Made by a program: the position numbers and the translations under genes. This document shows positions 52,584 to 64,000 of a DNA stretch of 64,000 bases, piece after piece; the stretch's first letter is position 1; every line of letters begins with the position of its first letter. The notes below the pieces were generated by a model. It ran no database searches. It was not told the origin of the DNA and worked only from the letters and a program-made list of their open reading frames with translations. Source of the stretch: Actinomycetota bacterium (GTDB lineage Bacteria; Actinomycetota; Coriobacteriia; Anaerosomatales; Anaerosomataceae); contig RCMX01000006.1 of NCBI GenBank assembly GCA_004348925.1, positions 553,443 to 617,442 of the forward strand, written 5' to 3'.

Positions 52584-55500
52584 TCACCCGCCGAGCATAT
52601 CGACGTGCACCGCATAGGTGCCGGATTCGGCGCCGAGCGGAACGCGCAGATCGTCGCGAGCGACGCCATCGACGGTGACGCTCTTGACGCCCCGGTTCAC
52701 ACCGCGCGGATTGTCGAAGGCGATCTCGTAGGTCGCGTCGCCGTCCCGGAACGTGACCGCCCATGACGTCCACGCCTTCGGGACACACGGATCGAGACGG
52801 AGGTAGCGCTGTCCGTGCTCGGCCTCCAGATACAGGCCGAGGATGTTCTGGACTGCGACGCGGTAGTACCAGCTTGCCGAGCCGGTATACCACGTCCAGC
52901 CGCCGCGGCCGACGTACGGTTCGACCGCGTAGACATCGGCGGCGATCACGTACGGTTCAACCCGGTAGCGCTCGGCGGCCGTGCGGTCGAGCGCGTGGTT
53001 GACCGGGTTGATGAGGTCGAGCAAGGCGACCGCCTCATCGCCATCACCCATGAGCGCGTATGCCAGGGCGACCCAGATGGCGGCATGCGTGTACTGTCCG
53101 CCGTTCTCGCGCACGCCGGGGACGTACCCCTTGATGTAACCCGGGTCATGTCGCATGTGATCGAACGGTGGTGTGAGCAGCGCCACCAGGCCATCGTCCC
53201 AGCGGACGAGCTTCTCTTCCACGCTCTGGAGCGCCCGTTGAGCCCGCGTCGCGCTTCCGCTGCCCGAGATCATCGCCCAGGCCTGCGCGATCGCATCGAT
53301 GCGGCACTCATCGGCAGCGCTCGTGCCGAGCGGCGTGCCATCGTCGAAGAAGGCGCGCCGGTACCAGGCGCCGTCCCACGCTTCGCGTTCCACCGCGGCT
53401 ATGAGCGCGGCGGCGTGTTCGCGCATGCCCGCGGCAGCCGCGACATCACCGCGCTTCTCGGCAAGAGGGGCGAACGAGCGTAGGACGACGTCGAGGAACC
53501 ACGCCATCCAGACGCTCTCACCGGCCCCGCCGATACCGACGCGGTTCATGCCGTCGTTCCAGTCGCCGCCGCCCATCAGCGGGAGGTCATGCGTGCCGGT
53601 CGCCATCGAGACCTCGATGGCGGCGCGGCAGTGCTCGTAGACGCTGCCGAGCTGGAGCGATGGTTGCACCTGCAGGTAGAGGTCTTCGCGATCATCCGGC
53701 ACGGGCGGGCCCTCGAGGTACGGCACCTCCACGTCCAGCACCGATGTGTCGCCGGTCGCACTGATGTACTCGGCAGTCACGAAGGGCAGCCATAGACGGT
53801 CATCGGCGAAGCGCGTGCGCACGCCGCGACCCGAGATCGGTTGCCACCAGTGCAGCACATCTCCCTCCGGGAACTGGTGCCGGGCCGCCTCGATGATGTG
53901 CTCGCGCACGAGATCCGGGCGAGAGTACAACAGCGCGAGACAGTCCTGCAGCTGGTCCCGGAAGCCGAATGCACCGCTCGACTGGTAGGTTGCCGTTCGG
54001 CCCCAGAAGCGGCAGGCGAGCGCCTCGTACAGCGCGGCGCCATTCACCATGCGGTCGAGCTCCGGATCGGGCGTGGTCGCCTCGACCGCGCCCAGCGTGC
54101 GGCTCCAGCGCTCACGAACCTCGGCGAGCTCAGCCTCCACCGCACCCGGCCGCCGCAACCGCTCGATGAGCGCGTGCGCATCGTCTACCGTCTCGGTCTG
54201 GCCGAGGAAGTACGTGACTGCGACGCTCTCGTCCGGCTCGAGGACGAGCTTGCGCATGAGCGCGCCGCAGTTGTCGAGGAAGCGACCGGTTGCGCCACCG
54301 AGCGTGCGGCGGTGCATCGCAGCCGGATCGCGCGGGTCGCCGTTGCGTCCAAGAAACTCGGTGCGGCTTGCTGTGAACGAGTCGAGCGCGCAGTCGCAGG
54401 CGAGGAACGCGGGTCGTCCGGGGAAGTCGGCGTTGAAGTAGTTGTGCGCCATGAGCGCGCGCGTTGCGTCGTCCCACCATGTCACGACCTGCTGCTGGGC
54501 CTTGCTGCGCGAATCACCAAGGGCCCACTCCACGAAGTGCGTCACCGAGAGACTCCGGCGCCGCCCTGAGACGTTCGTGAGCGTGACCTTCACGATGCGC
54601 ACCGGGTCCTCCGCTGCGACGAACCAGTCGATCTCGTGGCGAACGCCATGGCAGGTGTGCTCGAAGCGGGTGTACCCGCGCCCGTGGCGGATGACGTGCG
54701 GCGCTTCGTCGCGTATCGGCAGGAGGGTGGGGCTCCAGAACTTGCCGCTCTCCTCATCCCGGATGTAGAACGCCTCGCCGGTCCCATCGCTGACGGGGTC
54801 GTTGTTCCAGGTGGTGATGCGGTTTTCATGACTGTTCTCGGCCCAAGTGCAGCCGATACCCGCCTCCGAGATGAGCGCACCGAAGCCGGGATTCGCCACC
54901 ACGTTCACCCAGGGAGCCGGCGTCGCATCGCCGCCCTGCAGGACGATGACGTACTCATCTGTCTCTGGATCGAAGCCGCCGAAGCCGTTGTCGTGCACGA
55001 GCGTCGGTCGTACGAACGGCGGGTCGGGCTCACCTCGCACCGGTGCGACAGGGACGAGCATGTCCGGTTCGACTTCGTGGATAGCGCGAAGGTTGAGGTG
55101 CAGGCCGATCGGACCACCATCGCCGGTGAGCACGGCGCGCGCGACGCTGTCGAGGAGGTTGCGGACGTCGCCCGGAACCTGGTCGGCGACGCGCAGGTGC
55201 ACGCCACCGGGTCGGTCGTGCAGCTGCAGTGCGTGGCCGGTGCGCAGCAGCATGCGCAGTCGACCGTCGAGCTCCGAGGCGTATGCGCTCGGCTTCGTGT
55301 TGAGGATGACGAGATCGCATTCGAAGCCTTTGGAGCGCCAGTATTGATGGGCAAGCATCGCCTGACGCACCAGCGGCGTCTCCTCAAGGCGCTCGATCTT
55401 CACGAGGAGGATCGGGTAGTCGCCCGAGATGCCGATAGACCACAGGCCGGAGATCGGGAGCCGGTTCTCGACCTTCGTGAGCACTTTGAGTCGTGAACGC

Positions 55501-58500
55501 GGGTCGGTAAGCAGCAGGCGCGAAGCAAGCCGCTGGAAGACCACGGCCTCCTCGGGCGAGATGCCGAGGTCGCGCAGCTCGATCTGGCTGGTGGACCACG
55601 CGAGGTCGAGGGCGCGCTGGGCCGCGCGGATGTCGCGGTACCGCTCGGCGAGCGCGATGGCGCCCTCGCGCGTCTCGGCCACACCGGTGGTGAACGCAAG
55701 GTGCGCGGTCTCGCCCGGGCCGAGCTCGAGCGTCTGCCGGATCGAGCAGATGGGGTCGAGCACGGCGCCGACGGTGCCGGTCAGGCGACCATCGCCCCAT
55801 ATGGCGCGGGCATCGCCCGGCGTGTGCAACCTGCCGAGGAACGCCTCCCGACCGGTCTCGTGGCTCCAGTTGCACCGATCGTCCAGATCGCACGCCAGGA
55901 CGTGCATACCCCACGGACGGTCCTCGTGTGCCGAGCGCGGTCTGCGCGAGAACAGCAGCGCATTCAGATCATCGACCGCCTCGGTCTCCACGAACAGGTT
56001 GCTGAACGCTTTGTGGGCGTGGTCGGACTCGCCCTGCGCAAGCGTCACCTCGAAGTACGACGTGACCTCGAGGTGGAGCGTCGTCCGTCGCCGGTTGGTG
56101 ACGGTGATGCGTCGCACCTCCGCATCGTCTTCGGGTGAGACGACGACCTCGGTGTGTGCTTCGACGCCGTGGTCGATGCGGTGGTACTCGGCCTTGTCCG
56201 CCGAGAACGTGACGTGATACTCGTCCGGCTCGGCAAGCGATGGCTGATACGCCGCCGACCAGACCGTACCGCTCTCGACGTCCTTCAGGTAGAAGAACTG
56301 TCCCCAGCAGTCTCGCGTCACGTCTTCGCGGTAGCGCGTGACGGTGTAGTCGCGCCACCGGCTGTAGCCTCCGCCACCGTTGGTGACCATCACCGAGTAT
56401 GACCCGTTCGAAAGGAAGTGCGTGGCGGGCACCGGCGTGCCGGCGAGCGGGTACGAGCGGTGAACCGGGGCAGCGATCTCACGCACGGAGCGCACGAACC
56501 GCACCTCTTCGACATGCGGCTGCGCAAGCTGGGTGCGTCTCGGTACGCGCTCTTGCAGCAGCAGTTCGGAGGCGCGGATGACCGGGTCGGCATGGAACCG
56601 CTCCTGCATCCGGTCGTGCGTGAGCATGTTGCCGAGCGCTACAAGGCTCATGCCCTGGTGGTGCGCCATGTATGCCTTCACGATCGCGCGCTCTTTCCCT
56701 GCGGGCACGCGTCCCGGCGTGTAGTCGACGGCTTCGAAGTAACCGTAGCGTCCCTCGGCGCCCTGCACCGTCAGCCGCTCCAGGTTGTCGAGAGCGAGGC
56801 GAGGCGCGATCTGCAGCGCCAGCACGGTCGCATACGGTGCGACGACGATGTCGTCCGACAGCCCGCGCTTAAGGCCGAGGCCCGGCACGCCGAACGCCTG
56901 GTACTGGTACGTGAGATCGACGTCTTTCGCGTTGAACGCGCTTTCCGAGACGCCCCACGGCACACCACGCTGCTTGCCGTATTGCACCTGGCGCTTCACG
57001 ACGTTCTTGTACGTCTGGTCGAGCAGCGTGCCCGGCCAGTCGCGCATCACGAGCAGCGGCATGAGATACTCGAACATGCTTGCGCTCCAGGAGACGAGCG
57101 CCCGACCGCCCTCGGTCCTGGTGAGCGGCCTGCCGAGACGGAACCAGTGCTCCTGGGGCACATCGCCCTTCGCGATCGCGAGATAGCTCGCCAGGCGGCA
57201 TTCGCTAGCGAGCATGTCGTAGAAGGAGTTGTCGAGACGTCCCTCCGCGGTGTTGAAGCCGATGGAGAACACCATGCGACTCTCGTCGAAGAGCATCGCG
57301 AAGTCCGTGCGCTCCCACATCTCGCGCGCCATCTCTGTCGAGAGCCGCAACTCGGAGAGCAACTCCGAGGCGGTCGTGCGCCGGGCCCGGATCCCGTCCG
57401 CAAGCCTCGTCGCCCACGCTTCAGCGGCGTCATCCAATCCGCCGTTCTCGTCGAGGCACGCGAGCACGCCGCTCAAGCCCTCGGCAAGGCCGACAAGGCT
57501 CGGCGTGTGCCGCGTGATCGGTGCGATCGCCGCCGCGCGCTCACCCGACTCGAACGCTTCCGGGATACTGCCGAGCATGTGCGCCCAGGGCGCGTACTCG
57601 TCGATGTCCGAGAGGTGCTCATGCAGGCAGTCACGCACGGCTTCGATGGCAGCGCCGACGATCTCGAGCGAGGCGGGGGTGCCGCGTAGCGAAGCGGCGC
57701 GCGACGGCAGGCTTTCGGTGACAACGGCGAGGCCAGCCAGCAGCTGCCGCCATTCATGGAGATCCGAAGGGGGACGGTCGAGCCGGATCCGGCGCAGCAA
57801 CTCCTCGAGAGAGGTGCGAAGCTCGGTCACCATCCCGGCGGGGCCGATCGCGTCGCGCTGGCCGAGCAGCTCCTCGAGGGCCAACAGCACCGTATCGGCA
57901 AGGCCGTCGAGCACCTGCGCGTCGACGAGCGGCCTCTCGGCGATCTCGGTCAACCCGACTCGCAGCACCACGAGGTGCCCGGCCAGATTGCCGCTGTCCA
58001 CCGTGGAGACGTAGTTCGGCCGAAGCGGCTGCAGCGTCGTCGTGTCGTACCAGTTGTAGTAGTGCCCGCGATAGCGCTCCATCCCGGCCATCGTCGTCAG
58101 CGTCTGCATCGTGCGGTTCACAAGGCCGCGCACGCTCACGTATCCCAGGTCGTACGCCGAGAGCGCCGAGATGAGCTGAAGCCCGATGTTGGTGGGGGAG
58201 GTCCGGTGCGCGACCACGCCCTTCGGGTCTTCCTGGAAGTTGTCCGGGGCGAGCCAGTGGTCCTCGGCGGTCACGAACGTCTCGAAGAATCGCCACGTCT
58301 TGCGAGCCACACGGCGCATGGCGATGACGTCTGCCGACGTGAGGACAGGAGGCTCGTGCGGCGTGGGCATACTCACGCGCCACGCGATGAGCGGCGCTGC
58401 TGCCCACAGCAGCACAAGCGGCGCTGCGGAGACGAGCGACACGGGATCGAGCACTGCAGCCGGGAGCACGATCGCGGCAAGTGCTGCCTCGCCCGTCCAC

Positions 58501-61334
58501 ATCCGCCGCAGGAAGCCGGCGGAGGTCGAGCCCAGGCGGCGCTCGGTCTCGGCCGCGGTCTCCCACTCAAGCATGTTCCTGTGGGAGAGCGTCATCCGCC
58601 ACACAGCGCGGACGATCGCATCGAGCATGATGACCGCCTGGTGCGGAAGCACCGCGAGGTTGAGCAGCGCACGGGCCGAGTCACGCCAGAAGTCGCTTAC
58701 GATCGAGTGCGTGTCACCGCGCACATCGGCGCCGCGCGGGCGGAAGAGCAGCGAATCCGCGATGCTGAAGTACACCGGGAAGAAGACGATCGCCAGCACC
58801 GCGGCCAGCCACACCCAATCGCGGCCCGGGAGCGCGACCCAACCGACGCCCGCGAAGAGCATCATCGTCGGTGCGAGCAGACTCCGCCGCAGGTTGTCGA
58901 TGATCTTCCACCGGTGCAACGCCGAGAGGGGATTGCGCTCCCGGCCGTTCGCGGTCGGCACCGTCAGGCCAAGCCACGGCAGGGTCTGCCAGTCGCCGCG
59001 CACCCAGCGGTGGAGGCGCGCCACGTGACTGACGTAGCTCGCGGGCTGGTCGTCCAGAACCTCGATGTCGCTCGCAAGCGCTGTTCGCAGGAAGCTACCT
59101 TCAAGCAAGTCGTGGCTGAGCAGCGTGTTCTCGGGGAAGCGGTCCTCGAGCACGGCATTCATAACGTCGACCTCGAAGATGCCCTTGCCGGTGAACGAAC
59201 CCTCGCCGAAGACGTCCTGGTACGTATCCGAGACGGCACCGGCGTACGGGTCGACACCCGTCACTCCCGAGTAGAGCCAGGCGAAGGGCGAGCGCTCGGC
59301 GCCTTCGAGCGACATGCCCACTCTCGGCTGTACGAGCCCGTAGCCGCGCATGACTTTGCGGCGCGCATCATCGAGTTGCGCGCGATTGAGCGGGTGAGCG
59401 ATCGTGGAGATCAGCTTGCGCGCGCCATCCCTCGGCAGGACGGTGTCAGCGTCGAGCGTGATCACGAAGGTGATGGTCGGCAGCACCGACTCGTCGCCAT
59501 CGGTGACCGAGAAGCTCGTGTCGGACGCGCCGCGAAGCAGTTGCGTGAACTCGTGCAGCGCGCCACGCTTCCGCTCCCAGCCCATCCAGACGCCGTCCGC
59601 TTCGTTGAAGCGCCGACCGCGGACGAAGAGGTGGAACGGGTGCGAACCGTTCTCGCCGTACGTCTCGTTGAGCGTTTCGATGCCGTGGCGGGCTGCCTCG
59701 ATGATGGCCGCATCACCGGGCAGGTGCTCCTCGGCAGCGCCCTTGAGATCGCCGAGCAACCCGAAATGCACGTTCTCGTCCCGGTTCGCAAGGTACGCGA
59801 GCTCGAGGTTGTCGATGATGGCCTGCGTACCACCCGGCGAGGTGAGGAGCGCGGGGATGACCACCATCGTTCTGTGCGCGTAGGCAACCGGCTTCAGGTA
59901 GTCGAGCTTCGGGAGCGTCCGTGCCGGCCACACCGTCGAAGCGATGCGATTGACGACGTTCACCGAGAGATCCGAAAGCGGGATGATCGACAACAAGACG
60001 AGCGCGATCGTCCAACCGGGGCCCACACCACGCCCGATGACGTAGGCGGCCATCCCGGTCACAAGCAGCCAGGTGAACGATCCCAGCAGCCCCCAGAAGA
60101 TGACGCCTTTGCTGGCGAGCGGTCCACGGTAGGCGAGCTCGCGCAGGCGCGGGCGGTAGTCGAGACTTCGCTCGAGCGCATAGCGACCGCGACTGATGAG
60201 GTAGTAGCCGACGTGTCCGCCCACGGGGTCGGCGGCGTCTTTCCGCAGCGCTTCAAGCGCATGGCCGAGAACCGCCTCGGCGACCTCGATCTCCGCATGC
60301 GGGCACCGTGAGGCTATCTCCTCCACGGCGTGCCGGTAGCGGTCACGTGACACGAAATCCATCCGCGGGTACACGCCCGAGGGGTCTTCCCGGAGGACGT
60401 GCTCAGTGAGCGAACAGTCCTCGAAGAAATCCCGCCACTCGAGCGCGCCGAGGAAACGGATGCTTGTGATCGCGTTTGCGACGGAGACCTGGTCGGCCGC
60501 CTGGGCCTGGTGCTCCGCAAGCGTCAGCTGCTCGAAGGTGTCGGTCCTGCGGGCGATCGCCGCTTCGAGCCAGGCGACCGCCGGCTCGACCGAGGGGTCC
60601 TGGTCCTGCAGTCGTCCCGACAACCTGATCAGGAACGTGGGATTCGCGCTCGACTTCGCGCGCGCCATCGAGTCGACGATAGCGCTGACGTCACCGTCGG
60701 CCTTCTGCGCGGCCTCAAGGATACGATTTGCCCAGGCGTCTGCCTCCACACTCGCCTCATGTGACGAAAGGACGCGCAGCGCCAGCCGACGCAGGTTCTC
60801 GACCAGGCATACCCTGAGCATGATCGGGACGGCCCAGACTTCGCCGATAGTGAGCGGTGAGACGTCCTGGAACGCCATGATGAACCGCTCGAGATGTTCC
60901 CGATCGAGCCGGGCGTCTGTGGCGGCCACGAGCAGTGCGACGGCTTCGAACACCCGGGGATAGTCCTTGTACTCACCGTTGAGCAGCCGGGGCAGCTCGG
61001 CGCCGTAGTCGCCGGGAAGATCGTCCCTGACGGTGTGGATCTGCTCCTCTATGAGGTAGAAGTTGTCGAGCAGCCACTCCGCGGACACCGAGACAGGAGT
61101 CTGGTCGCGCACCGCGAGGGCAAGGCTCGTGTAGACGCGGCCAAGCGACTCCTCGGCTCGCTCGACCATGGGCAGCAGCGGCGTCGCCCGCAGCGTCTCC
61201 GCCGACGTCCACGGTTGGGCCCCCGCCAGCTCGCGGGCAGCGTCAGCGAGTCGCTCGGTGCTCAGCAGCTCTGCGCGAAGAGGATCGTCGCCGGAGGGAA
61301 TAGTCCAGCGTTGAGGCGAGTCAGCCTGTGCCAT
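52584..61334 (-). CDS. giant NdvB-like cyclic beta-1,2-glucan synthase
   Basis: About 2,916 residues, one of the largest genes of the region. In order: an N-terminal helical region; membrane helices at about 413-470; a GT84-like glycosyltransferase domain with ITLDADTVLPRDGA (about 500-760); two more membrane clusters (about 828-865 and 948-983); and a glucoamylase-like domain around residues 1415-1505 (FEYLMPLLVMRDWPGTLL, ESAFNAKDVDLTYQYQ). Two carbohydrate-binding supersandwich regions follow, and a GH94-type domain near residue 2590 has GGGDWNDGMN. NdvB makes cyclic beta-1,2-glucan from UDP-glucose and trims it by phosphorolysis. No separate exporter (NdvA) is visible. Start ATG 61334 is uncertain. 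Confidence 0.9.
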   Translation of the reverse strand: MAQADSPQRWTIPSGDDPLRAELLSTERLADAARELAGAQPWTSAETLRATPLLPMVERAEESLGRVYTSLALAVRDQTPVSVSAEWLLDNFYLIEEQIHTVRDDLPGDYGAELPRLLNGEYKDYPRVFEAVALLVAATDARLDREHLERFIMAFQDVSPLTIGEVWAVPIMLRVCLVENLRRLALRVLSSHEASVEADAWANRILEAAQKADGDVSAIVDSMARAKSSANPTFLIRLSGRLQDQDPSVEPAVAWLEAAIARRTDTFEQLTLAEHQAQAADQVSVANAITSIRFLGALEWRDFFEDCSLTEHVLREDPSGVYPRMDFVSRDRYRHAVEEIASRCPHAEIEVAEAVLGHALEALRKDAADPVGGHVGYYLISRGRYALERSLDYRPRLRELAYRGPLASKGVIFWGLLGSFTWLLVTGMAAYVIGRGVGPGWTIALVLLSIIPLSDLSVNVVNRIASTVWPARTLPKLDYLKPVAYAHRTMVVIPALLTSPGGTQAIIDNLELAYLANRDENVHFGLLGDLKGAAEEHLPGDAAIIEAARHGIETLNETYGENGSHPFHLFVRGRRFNEADGVWMGWERKRGALHEFTQLLRGASDTSFSVTDGDESVLPTITFVITLDADTVLPRDGARKLISTIAHPLNRAQLDDARRKVMRGYGLVQPRVGMSLEGAERSPFAWLYSGVTGVDPYAGAVSDTYQDVFGEGSFTGKGIFEVDVMNAVLEDRFPENTLLSHDLLEGSFLRTALASDIEVLDDQPASYVSHVARLHRWVRGDWQTLPWLGLTVPTANGRERNPLSALHRWKIIDNLRRSLLAPTMMLFAGVGWVALPGRDWVWLAAVLAIVFFPVYFSIADSLLFRPRGADVRGDTHSIVSDFWRDSARALLNLAVLPHQAVIMLDAIVRAVWRMTLSHRNMLEWETAAETERRLGSTSAGFLRRMWTGEAALAAIVLPAAVLDPVSLVSAAPLVLLWAAAPLIAWRVSMPTPHEPPVLTSADVIAMRRVARKTWRFFETFVTAEDHWLAPDNFQEDPKGVVAHRTSPTNIGLQLISALSAYDLGYVSVRGLVNRTMQTLTTMAGMERYRGHYYNWYDTTTLQPLRPNYVSTVDSGNLAGHLVVLRVGLTEIAERPLVDAQVLDGLADTVLLALEELLGQRDAIGPAGMVTELRTSLEELLRRIRLDRPPSDLHEWRQLLAGLAVVTESLPSRAASLRGTPASLEIVGAAIEAVRDCLHEHLSDIDEYAPWAHMLGSIPEAFESGERAAAIAPITRHTPSLVGLAEGLSGVLACLDENGGLDDAAEAWATRLADGIRARRTTASELLSELRLSTEMAREMWERTDFAMLFDESRMVFSIGFNTAEGRLDNSFYDMLASECRLASYLAIAKGDVPQEHWFRLGRPLTRTEGGRALVSWSASMFEYLMPLLVMRDWPGTLLDQTYKNVVKRQVQYGKQRGVPWGVSESAFNAKDVDLTYQYQAFGVPGLGLKRGLSDDIVVAPYATVLALQIAPRLALDNLERLTVQGAEGRYGYFEAVDYTPGRVPAGKERAIVKAYMAHHQGMSLVALGNMLTHDRMQERFHADPVIRASELLLQERVPRRTQLAQPHVEEVRFVRSVREIAAPVHRSYPLAGTPVPATHFLSNGSYSVMVTNGGGGYSRWRDYTVTRYREDVTRDCWGQFFYLKDVESGTVWSAAYQPSLAEPDEYHVTFSADKAEYHRIDHGVEAHTEVVVSPEDDAEVRRITVTNRRRTTLHLEVTSYFEVTLAQGESDHAHKAFSNLFVETEAVDDLNALLFSRRPRSAHEDRPWGMHVLACDLDDRCNWSHETGREAFLGRLHTPGDARAIWGDGRLTGTVGAVLDPICSIRQTLELGPGETAHLAFTTGVAETREGAIALAERYRDIRAAQRALDLAWSTSQIELRDLGISPEEAVVFQRLASRLLLTDPRSRLKVLTKVENRLPISGLWSIGISGDYPILLVKIERLEETPLVRQAMLAHQYWRSKGFECDLVILNTKPSAYASELDGRLRMLLRTGHALQLHDRPGGVHLRVADQVPGDVRNLLDSVARAVLTGDGGPIGLHLNLRAIHEVEPDMLVPVAPVRGEPDPPFVRPTLVHDNGFGGFDPETDEYVIVLQGGDATPAPWVNVVANPGFGALISEAGIGCTWAENSHENRITTWNNDPVSDGTGEAFYIRDEESGKFWSPTLLPIRDEAPHVIRHGRGYTRFEHTCHGVRHEIDWFVAAEDPVRIVKVTLTNVSGRRRSLSVTHFVEWALGDSRSKAQQQVVTWWDDATRALMAHNYFNADFPGRPAFLACDCALDSFTASRTEFLGRNGDPRDPAAMHRRTLGGATGRFLDNCGALMRKLVLEPDESVAVTYFLGQTETVDDAHALIERLRRPGAVEAELAEVRERWSRTLGAVEATTPDPELDRMVNGAALYEALACRFWGRTATYQSSGAFGFRDQLQDCLALLYSRPDLVREHIIEAARHQFPEGDVLHWWQPISGRGVRTRFADDRLWLPFVTAEYISATGDTSVLDVEVPYLEGPPVPDDREDLYLQVQPSLQLGSVYEHCRAAIEVSMATGTHDLPLMGGGDWNDGMNRVGIGGAGESVWMAWFLDVVLRSFAPLAEKRGDVAAAAGMREHAAALIAAVEREAWDGAWYRRAFFDDGTPLGTSAADECRIDAIAQAWAMISGSGSATRAQRALQSVEEKLVRWDDGLVALLTPPFDHMRHDPGYIKGYVPGVRENGGQYTHAAIWVALAYALMGDGDEAVALLDLINPVNHALDRTAAERYRVEPYVIAADVYAVEPYVGRGGWTWYTGSASWYYRVAVQNILGLYLEAEHGQRYLRLDPCVPKAWTSWAVTFRDGDATYEIAFDNPRGVNRGVKSVTVDGVARDDLRVPLGAESGTYAVHVDMLGG

Positions 61335-61453
61335 GTCCACGCTCTCAGTTCGACGTCCGGCCCCCGCCTGGCGCGTCGCAGCGGGTGGGGCCCCCAAAGA
61401 ACCATTGTGCCACGAAACCGCAGAGCCGAAGCCCTCTTCTCACGGCACGAACC

Positions 61454-61482: not shown

Positions 61483-61503
61483 TGCACCTTCGAGGAGGTA
61501 CAT

Positions 61504-62238
61504 GTGCGACTCATGAATCGAGGCCGACCCCGCGGTCTGCGCATCATCGGCGCGCTCATTGCGCTCGTCGCTATCGTGGCCGTGCTTGGCCTGACCGGTT
61601 GCAGTGGCGGGCTTCCCGCTGCCGGCAACGTGCAGAACAAGGCCGCCAGGACCCTGCAAGACAAAGGCGTCCGAATCATCGACGTGCGTACCGCGACGGA
61701 GTTCGAAGCCGGGCATATTCCGGATGCCGAGAACGTCCCGCTCGATCAGCTGAGTGCGGCAATGGGCTCGTGGGACAAGACCGAGCCGATTCTCGTCTAC
61801 TGCGCTACAGGTTCGCGGTCGGCGGAAGCGATGCAGGTGCTCGTCTCGGCGGGATTCACCACCGTGTACAACCTGCAGAACGGTATCGTCGCCTGGGACG
61901 GCGATGTAACGGCGGGTCCGGGTGGGACCGTCGCTGGTTCGCTTGCGCCGTCGGCAAGCGGCCTGCCGGTGCTCTACGAGTTCTACACCGATTGGTGACC
62001 CGCGTGCCAGAAGATGAAGCCCGTGGTCGACGGGCTCAAGAAGGAGTACGAGGGCAAGGTCGAATTCAAGCTTTACAACGTCGAGAAGGATGCCGAGGGC
62101 GCGGCTCTCGCCAACAAGCTTGGCGCACAGTTCGTTCCGACGTTTGAGTTCGTGAACGCTGACGGCAGCATCAACAAGGAGATCGTGGGCGAGGTCAGCG
62201 AGGCGCAGTTGCGCCAGCAGCTGGACGCTCTTAAGTAG
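61504..62238 (+). CDS. rhodanese-thioredoxin selenolipoprotein (UGA read as selenocysteine)
   Basis: 244 residues if the in-frame TGA at 61996-61998 is read as selenocysteine 165. An N-terminal lipoprotein signal (LVAIVAVLGLTGC, lipid Cys33) is followed by a rhodanese domain (about 45-145) with active-site loop YCATGSRS. A thioredoxin-fold domain (about 155-244) starts YEFYTDW, then Sec165-Pro-Ala-Cys168 and QKMKPVVDGLKKEYEGK. Sec165 takes the place of the first cysteine of the CxxC motif, giving UxxC. The frame continues after the TGA without any shift for 80 codons with clear thioredoxin similarity (VPTFEFVNADG). GTG 61504 has GAGGAGG upstream. The product would sit on the outer face of the cytoplasmic membrane, where it could reduce disulfides or handle sulfane sulfur. 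Confidence 0.9.
62018..62036 (+). promoter_or_regulatory. bacterial SECIS hairpin
   Basis: AGCCCGT (62018-62024) and ACGGGCT (62030-62036) form a 7-bp perfect stem with the apical loop GGTCG. The loop starts 27 bases after the last base of the TGA, inside the usual window. Its GGU resembles the GGUCU loop of E. coli fdhF mRNA that SelB recognises. Confidence 0.82.
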
Positions 62239-62293: not shown

Positions 62294-62683
62294 TCGTGTC
62301 GGTGTGAGCGGGGCGCAACACAGGGGTATACCAGAGTAGTGAGGAGATGCATCCCATCTCCAGCAACCGATGTATGCATCGGAGGTGACGCCGGTCTGAG
62401 AGCGACAGAACCCCAGTTTCAGCCGGGGTGGCAGAGGAAGATTCCCGCTTAGCTGTTGTATAGGTTCAGTTCGTGATCGTGTCAGGCCGTCGGGAGACGG
62501 TACCTCGTAAGTCAACTGTACGTATTCGAAGGGGCACGGCCGAACGGGACATCGGGCATAAGCCTCTGGAATTTCCGGGAGTGCGGCCGAGGGGGACCAC
62601 TCACTTGGCCAAGTATCTCCCTAGGATGGCCCTGTGGAGGGGCGACTCGGGCGGTGCGAAGGCCTCCCCGGCTACCGAGACAC

Positions 62684-62715
62684 ACAAGGGCGGATGCACG
62701 TGCATCTGCCCTTGT
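62684..62715. repeat. 32-bp near-perfect palindrome
   Basis: ACAAGGGCGGATGCAC and GTGCATCTGCCCTTGT are complementary over 16 bases with one G-U pair and no spacer. In RNA it is a very stable hairpin (attenuator-like, no T-tract); in DNA it could be a protein-binding site. Confidence 0.85.
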
Positions 62716-62801: not shown

Positions 62802-64000
62802 ATGAAGGATCACATGAGACGCATCCGGCGCCTGAGCCTCGGGCTCTACGCCCTCCTCTGCGTGGTCATTGTCGTCATCGGCGTCGTTACGTATCGAGGC
62901 TTCCGGGAGACCATCCGCACCGAGGCGAGCGAACAACTTGTCGCAATCGCCGAGCTCAAAGTCACCGAGATCGCCGCGTGGCGCCTCGAGAGACTCGAGG
63001 ACGGACGACTGCTCCAACGCACGCCGGGCTTTGGGGCGACTGCAACGGAGGTCCTTCGCGGCGAGGACGGTGCTTCGCGTGAGCGATTGCTTGCGTGGCT
63101 CGCACAGGTGCAGGAAGCGCACCACTACGCCCAGGTATCGCTGATCGACGCTGCGGGAAATCGCGTCGTGTCACTGCCCGCAGCAAGTCGCGTAGTCGAC
63201 GCGGGCTTGCGTGAAGAAGCACAGCGTGTCATGGCGTCCGGCGAGGTGGGTATCGCTGATTTTCATCGCGACGATACTCCCGAACGCCAGGTCCATCTCT
63301 CAATCGTGGTCCCCGTGATCGATGCAGCGACCGGCGACCCTGTCGGGGTGGTGGCGCTCAAGATCGACCCGACGGTGTTCCTGTACCCGTACATCAGCCA
63401 GTGGCCCGGTTCCTCCCCCTCGGCCGAGACCCTCCTTGTTGAGCGGAGCGGCAACGACGTGGTGTTCCTGAATGACCTGCGCTTCCAGAAGGACGCCGCG
63501 CTCAATACGAGGATCCCACTGACATCCACGAACGTCCCTGCCGTACAGATCGCACTCGGCAACGAGCTGGTCATGGATGGTGTCGATTACCGTGGCGTGC
63601 AGACGGTCGCGGCCACACGCAAGGTGCCTGACTCCCCCTGGGGGGTCGTTGCGCGCATCGATGCGGCCGAGGTATATGCCCCCGTCCGGGCCCGTCTGAG
63701 TGAAACCGTCGTGCTCATGCTTTCGGCCATGCTCGTCGGCCTTGTCGGGATGCTCGGAACCCTTCGGATGCAGGAACTGCAGCTCAAACGGGATGAGATG
63801 CGCGCCGAGGCCGAGCGCGCGTGGCTGGCATCGGCGATCGACCGCGGCTTGAACGAGACGTATGTCTTCGACGCCGAGACGTTGCGGTTCGAGTATGCCA
63901 ATCTCGGCGCTCTCAGAAACCTCGGCTACTCGGCCGACGAACTGTGCGCGCTGACACCGCTCGACCTGAAGCCGGAGCTGACGCCTGCAGCGTTCGAGGC
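62802..64000 (+). CDS. membrane sensor with extracytoplasmic Cache-like domain and PAS (partial)
   Basis: The gene runs off the right edge; 399 codons are visible. A helix at about residues 12-30 (GLYALLCVVIVVIGVVTY) precedes an extracytoplasmic domain of about 260 residues with ASEQLVAIAELKVTEIAAW, ARVSLIDAAG-like (AQVSLIDAAGNRVV) and LSIVVPVIDAATGDPVGVVA stretches, a Cache-type fold. A second helix (about 293-315) and the start of a PAS domain (AWLASAIDRGLNETYVFDAE) follow. The C-terminal output (kinase or GGDEF) is outside the window. The start is ATG 62802, with GTG 62796 and ATG 62814 possible. Confidence 0.8.
   Translation, partial: MKDHMRRIRRLSLGLYALLCVVIVVIGVVTYRGFRETIRTEASEQLVAIAELKVTEIAAWRLERLEDGRLLQRTPGFGATATEVLRGEDGASRERLLAWLAQVQEAHHYAQVSLIDAAGNRVVSLPAASRVVDAGLREEAQRVMASGEVGIADFHRDDTPERQVHLSIVVPVIDAATGDPVGVVALKIDPTVFLYPYISQWPGSSPSAETLLVERSGNDVVFLNDLRFQKDAALNTRIPLTSTNVPAVQIALGNELVMDGVDYRGVQTVAATRKVPDSPWGVVARIDAAEVYAPVRARLSETVVLMLSAMLVGLVGMLGTLRMQELQLKRDEMRAEAERAWLASAIDRGLNETYVFDAETLRFEYANLGALRNLGYSADELCALTPLDLKPELTPAAFE

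Follow-up and report, generated by a model that had tools for sequence, protein, structure and literature searches.

The window, a stretch of 64,000 nucleotides from an Anaerosomataceae genome (contig RCMX01000006.1), encodes a protein, predicted to be exported, in which a rhodanese domain is followed by a thioredoxin domain whose first active-site cysteine is replaced by an in-frame TGA. Comparison with homologues across the order Anaerosomatales indicates that this protein is almost certainly a selenoprotein, produced by recoding of the UGA with a bacterial SECIS element.

The gene begins with a GTG codon lying 5 nt downstream of an AGGAGG motif, and the TGA of codon 165 is the only in-frame stop within it (Table 1). 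The initial annotation had placed this TGA, within a single frame, on the first cysteine of a thioredoxin active site (U165-P-A-C168), followed by an open thioredoxin-like frame and a SECIS-type hairpin, and all of these proposals are borne out by the comparisons described below. The rhodanese domain, a putative sulfurtransferase, scores 73.9 bits against PF00581 (gathering score 22.2), and the same family matches all 50 fused members scanned. The thioredoxin domain scores 52.9 bits against PF00085 (gathering score 23.5). These are the only domains detected in the protein, there being no fused FAD/CoA disulfide reductase domain.

Table 1. Coordinates of the rhodanese-selenothioredoxin gene, its functional sites and neighbouring features in the window.
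Feature	Position	Strand	Remarks
AGGAGG motif	61493..61498	+	
Rhodanese-selenothioredoxin CDS	61504..62238	+	244 aa including Sec165; GTG start, TAG stop
Signal peptide and lipobox LTGC	61504..61602	+	From sequence; predicted lipidated Cys33 at 61600-61602
Rhodanese domain	61639..61899	+	Residues 46-132; PF00581, 1.6e-20
Catalytic Cys100	61801..61803	+	Within C100-A-T-G-S-R (CATGSR)
Thioredoxin domain	61966..62226	+	Residues 155-241; PF00085, 4.1e-14
UGA codon, Sec165	61996..61998	+	51/51 full-length homologues have TGA here, as do the aligned stand-alone relatives
Resolving Cys168 of UxxC	62005..62007	+	Invariant
SECIS hairpin	62018..62036	+	Stem 62018-62024/62030-62036, loop GGUCG 62025-62029; compensatory stem changes
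cis-Pro212 of thioredoxin domain	62137..62139	+	Invariant among homologues
Candidate structured RNA, core	62541..62679	+	Conserved 5' part from about 62420; followed by a hairpin at 62686-62713
GH94/glucoamylase-domain protein	52584..61397	-	2937 aa, cyclic-glucan-synthase-like; divergent from the selenoprotein gene
dCache_1-domain sensor protein	62802..64000	+	Start of the gene, just past the RNA; truncated at the end of the window

Evidence for selenocysteine insertion

Just over 50 high-scoring rhodanese-plus-thioredoxin matches were obtained in 69 genomes of the order, each with a single in-frame TGA. From 49 of these genomes we translated 51 full-length fused homologues, which share 39-89% identity with the window protein. 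All 51 carry the TGA at the same codon, the UxxC motif and the cis-proline, continue for 78-81 residues past the TGA and end at the same stop position, and a homologue that terminates at the TGA, with no conserved frame behind it, was not seen among them. In the codons past the TGA, 14 synonymous and 3 nonsynonymous differences separate the window gene from that of locus L019, and close relatives differ mostly at third positions.

The SECIS hairpin, with the consensus GCCYRU-GGUCG-ACRGGC, lies 23-40 nt past the U of the UGA and covaries strongly across 60 sequences. Since its single-sequence folding energy is unremarkable (z = -1.07), we relied on comparison across sequences. The proposed partners pair in 95% of cells, against 23-48% when one side of the stem is slid by 1-3 nt, and none of 2000 column shuffles reached the observed level (the shuffle mean is as high as 87% because several columns hardly vary). 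The pair 26-36 occurs as UA, CG and GC, and the pair 27-35 as GC, CG, AU and UA, with the compensatory changes accompanying amino-acid changes (D-R, D-G, E-G, E-R). Furthermore, the loop has GU at its second and third places in all 60 sequences.

Absence of the sel genes, which the initial annotation had named as grounds for dropping the selenoprotein reading, was not observed: tRNA-Sec (67.8 bits), selA, selB and selD are all present in the same genome, in one cluster at C6:176-187 kb. The selD gene (L016, C6:176275-177189) itself contains an in-frame TGA, so the selenophosphate synthetase, too, probably contains Sec.

Across the order, selA was detected in 54 of 69 genomes. Among the genomes with a TGA gene, 48 possess selA and 11 have no detectable copy; a further genome with a TGA gene, G037, stands outside this count and likewise lacks selA. 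Most of these 11 assemblies are incomplete, the exceptions being G025 (98% complete) and G005 (96%); both carry TGA/SECIS genes, and in both no selA, no selB above the cut-off and no tRNA-Sec was found. With the sel genes clustered together in G000, a single assembly gap could remove all of them, and it is likely that the cluster is missing from these assemblies rather than from the organisms. In G029 and G068, neither selA nor a full-length TGA homologue was seen. The 11 gene-bearing genomes without detected selA are what could be held in favour of a pseudogene or a sequencing error, with the TGA as a true stop. The comparison of homologues refutes this explanation, to which we assign a negligible probability: the TGA and the frame behind it persist over a wide range of identity, the SECIS covaries, and the machinery is encoded in the genome.

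Distribution, anchoring and loss of the rhodanese domain

About three quarters of the species in the Anaerosomatales, an order of actinobacteria that respire sulfur and iron, keep the fusion, and the domain order is the same across most of its families. In a class-wide search of 298 genomes, matches at 1e-25 were confined to this order, and in a phylum-wide search of 396 genomes only lone rhodanese domains were found outside it at 1e-20. A search of genome contigs yielded two close relatives and otherwise single-domain matches, mostly to the rhodanese domains of persulfide dioxygenase-like or CoA-disulfide-reductase-like proteins.

The lipid anchor suggested in the initial annotation is supported for the window protein by its lipobox; it does not stand as a general feature, since only about 10 of the 51 homologues have a lipobox, the others possessing an N-terminal hydrophobic transmembrane helix that looks uncleaved. 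Membrane anchoring would seem to be general, and lipidation not. The catalytic Cys of the rhodanese domain is kept in 50 of the 51 fused homologues, the sole exception being L029, which has Tyr in its place (an assembly error is possible). The surrounding DVR, G, R, S frame is invariant. As far as sequences indicate, the fused form with an active-looking rhodanese has undergone no Sec-to-Cys substitution among at least 51 members. A Cys-type counterpart, to which the initial annotation had looked for an alignment, does exist in the order as the rhodanese-thioredoxin lipoprotein L154 (G041:C56), but its rhodanese site is dead: this paralogue combines a rhodanese fold that has no catalytic Cys with a normal CxxC thioredoxin. 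A second paralogous lipoprotein, L153 (G038:C170), likewise has a rhodanese fold without the catalytic Cys, and its thioredoxin-like part is devoid of the CxxC motif. Hence, the rhodanese Cys is kept where the thioredoxin carries Sec and is gone in fused proteins without Sec, although the latter are two counter-examples only; this co-occurrence points to joint use of the two sites.

Stand-alone Sec-thioredoxins, often lipoproteins, also occur, and no constant redox partner was seen at their loci. In a tree of the thioredoxin domain they are nested inside the fused forms, with at least five changes forced by well-supported branches; the fusion therefore appears to be the ancestral state, from which the rhodanese was lost repeatedly, the tree being built on few columns and weak in branch detail. 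Indeed, the rhodanese is absent at the same locus in L088 and L103, which are recognised by the RNA that they share downstream. L096 (G012:C23) would seem to be a further fusion of this Sec module: a single frame there joins an acidic N-terminal part of different build to the Sec-thioredoxin domain behind it.

The element downstream of the fusion gene is a candidate for a new, unreported structured noncoding RNA specific to the order. Its alignment of 38 sequences gives 29 predicted pairs, 14 of them with changes on both sides. A covariance model located a single copy in 58 of the order's 69 genomes and matched none of the class genomes outside it (398 searched in all), and in 50 of the 58 the element lies 157-345 nt 3' of a Sec-thioredoxin gene on the same strand. 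It has no match in Rfam. Searches of Rfam with the window (at gathering scores) and with the locus (permissively) returned tRNA-Ile and chance matches only; an IRES_Bip match at the locus (E 0.003) was rejected as far below the gathering score. On the other side, about 40 of the 51 homologous loci have the sequence of the giant GH94 protein upstream.

Predicted structure and relation to known systems

An AlphaFold2 model of the window protein, built from 50 homologues, has a mean pLDDT of 87.8 and a pTM of 0.60; both domains are mostly above 90, the linker is at about 70-78, and the N-terminal helix spans residues 12-27. The modelled rhodanese domain matches 3tp9, in which a beta-lactamase fold and a rhodanese are joined (Z 18.2), CoADR-RHD (16.6), a persulfide dioxygenase-rhodanese (16.5), GlpE (16.0), TSTD1 (15.6) and Npsr (15.0). 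Among the matches listed, its nearest counterparts in fold are rhodanese domains that form part of sulfane-sulfur or persulfide enzyme fusions. The thioredoxin part resembles thioredoxins with Z of about 14, and no known structure that pairs the two domains is among the matches listed. The linker is flexible, as the pTM indicates, which makes contact between the two catalytic sites no more than putative.

Both Sec-thioredoxins and Sec-rhodaneses are known, each on its own; the fusion of a rhodanese to a Sec-thioredoxin in one chain has apparently not been described before, and the literature searched agrees with the initial annotation that no function has been described for it. Indeed, the portion of the 2026 inventory available to us (PMC13188914) covers rhodanese forms 1-5, including TsoB, and a UxxC thioredoxin, and contains no rhodanese fused to a Sec-thioredoxin. 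The window protein shares with the characterised Sec-thioredoxins (PF00085) the thioredoxin fold and Sec in place of the first active-site Cys; those entries, as given in PMC13188914 and PMC9312934, consist of the thioredoxin domain alone, whereas this protein is predicted to be exported and anchored, is fused to an active-looking rhodanese and has Sec in every fused homologue. The rhodanese-related selenoproteins (forms 1-5; NF041203, 'LYCAU') share the rhodanese fold and the presence of Sec, but they carry it in or near the rhodanese site, whereas here the rhodanese Cys is kept and Sec lies in the thioredoxin. Accordingly, the window protein scores 39.7 bits against NF041203 (cut-off 115), and its rhodanese site reads CAT, not CxU. 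TsoB (NF045694), a selenoprotein resembling a rhodanese/DsbD fusion, also joins a rhodanese to a DsbD-like redox part; it differs in its length (profile of about 570 aa) and in its reported motif UxxxxU with two Sec, and its model reaches 38.7 bits, against a cut-off of 805, over the rhodanese stretch only. No NCBIfam model among the matches listed reaches its cut-off.

The NADH-dependent persulfide reductase Npsr and CoADR-RHD likewise fuse a single-domain rhodanese of very similar fold to a disulfide-type reductase. Their reductase is a flavoenzyme working with CoA and here it is an extracytoplasmic Sec-thioredoxin; Npsr resembles the window protein in working principle only. BpPRF (5ve3-5ve5), a persulfide dioxygenase-rhodanese, has the same class of rhodanese fold and a persulfide-handling partner, but this partner is oxidative and iron-dependent.

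Possible functions of the fusion

Our leading proposal, which we hold tentatively and at slightly less than an even chance, is that this exported, membrane-anchored chain is an extracytoplasmic sulfane-sulfur (persulfide) reductase. Its putative mechanism is modelled on Npsr, whose fused reductase produces H2S from sulfur first accepted by the Cys of its C-terminal rhodanese (PMC7969121). With thiosulfate, polysulfide or a thiol persulfide as donor, Cys100 would accept a sulfane sulfur to give Cys-SSH, which the tethered selenolate of Sec165 would attack; Cys168 would resolve, with release of H2S, and the Se-S bond that is left would be re-reduced by a CcdA/DsbD-type electron carrier in the membrane. 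The genome has three DsbD/CcdA-type matches, one of them beside an extracytoplasmic-type Cys-thioredoxin. The proposal is also favoured by a member of the order that respires sulfur and thiosulfate (PMC9686372); the gene's presence in G008, considered below, and the Tyr of L029 speak against it. The idea put forward in the initial annotation, that the rhodanese Cys hands sulfane sulfur on to the selenol, is plausible, and reduction with release of H2S is chemically a likelier outcome than mere sulfur transfer. The conserved rhodanese Cys and the fold likeness to rhodanese-persulfide enzyme fusions favour this idea; the stand-alone Sec-thioredoxins, having arisen several times from the fused form, weaken it. 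No conserved sulfur-metabolism gene was seen beside the fusion gene in the homologous loci examined, where neighbour clustering was swamped by spurious frames from the high-GC upstream gene.

Since the Sec-thioredoxin persists without the rhodanese, it is nearly as likely as a persulfide reductase that the domains work separately, with the Sec-thioredoxin acting as a general extracytoplasmic reductant of disulfides (or of methionine sulfoxide or peroxiredoxin) and the rhodanese as a sulfur carrier or persulfide sensor on the same anchor. The repeated loss of the rhodanese implies that the thioredoxin part works without it and, occurring also at the same locus, argues against obligate coupling; the dead rhodanese fold retained in L153 and L154 is likewise in keeping with separate roles. 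Such roles are harder to reconcile with the near-universal rhodanese Cys and invariant frame of the fused Sec proteins, or with a domain order that is constant across most families.

The extracytoplasmic anchoring, together with the respiration of sulfur and thiosulfate with H2 or formate by a cultivated member of the order (PMC9686372), might suggest that the fusion is a terminal reductase, main or accessory, in thiosulfate/sulfur respiration. This is unlikely: most of the order has the gene irrespective of the electron acceptor used, no connection with a quinone or cytochrome was seen, and thiosulfate reduction has been assigned to a molybdoenzyme (PMC9686372). Moreover, the gene is carried by G008, by inference Parvivirga hydrogeniphila, an Fe(III) reducer that reduces neither sulfur nor thiosulfate (PMC9686372), which speaks against a respiratory role if that identification holds. 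Defence or housekeeping against reactive sulfur would fit the fusion better than such a role.

Sulfur donation is common among rhodaneses, and those of MoeB/MoeZ and MnmH are among the closest NCBIfam models listed. The fusion could, then, be an extracytoplasmic sulfurtransferase for another acceptor (a cofactor, a metal site or a selenium species), with Sec just tuning the redox state of the rhodanese. We consider this highly improbable, as the likeness to MoeB/MoeZ and MnmH is limited to the domain and lies far under every cut-off, and tRNA or cofactor sulfuration is ill suited to an exported location.

Returning to the persulfide reductase, it is possible, though doubtful at this stage, that the order-wide trait is a dedicated extracytoplasmic, selenium-dependent sulfane-sulfur reductase of subsurface actinobacteria, in which the rhodanese captures the sulfur and the tethered selenolate strips it as H2S. 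To our knowledge, no other enzyme uses Sec on a rhodanese persulfide within a single chain, and this one would be the first. The selenoproteome gains a fusion of which a single order has at least 51 members, represented neither in the NCBIfam models checked nor in the accessible portion of the published inventory, and annotation ending at the UGA would lose its catalytic half. As members of the order seem to be in culture, coupling of the two sites is testable; if the sites are coupled, the fusion would reveal what advantage selenium brings to sulfane-sulfur chemistry.
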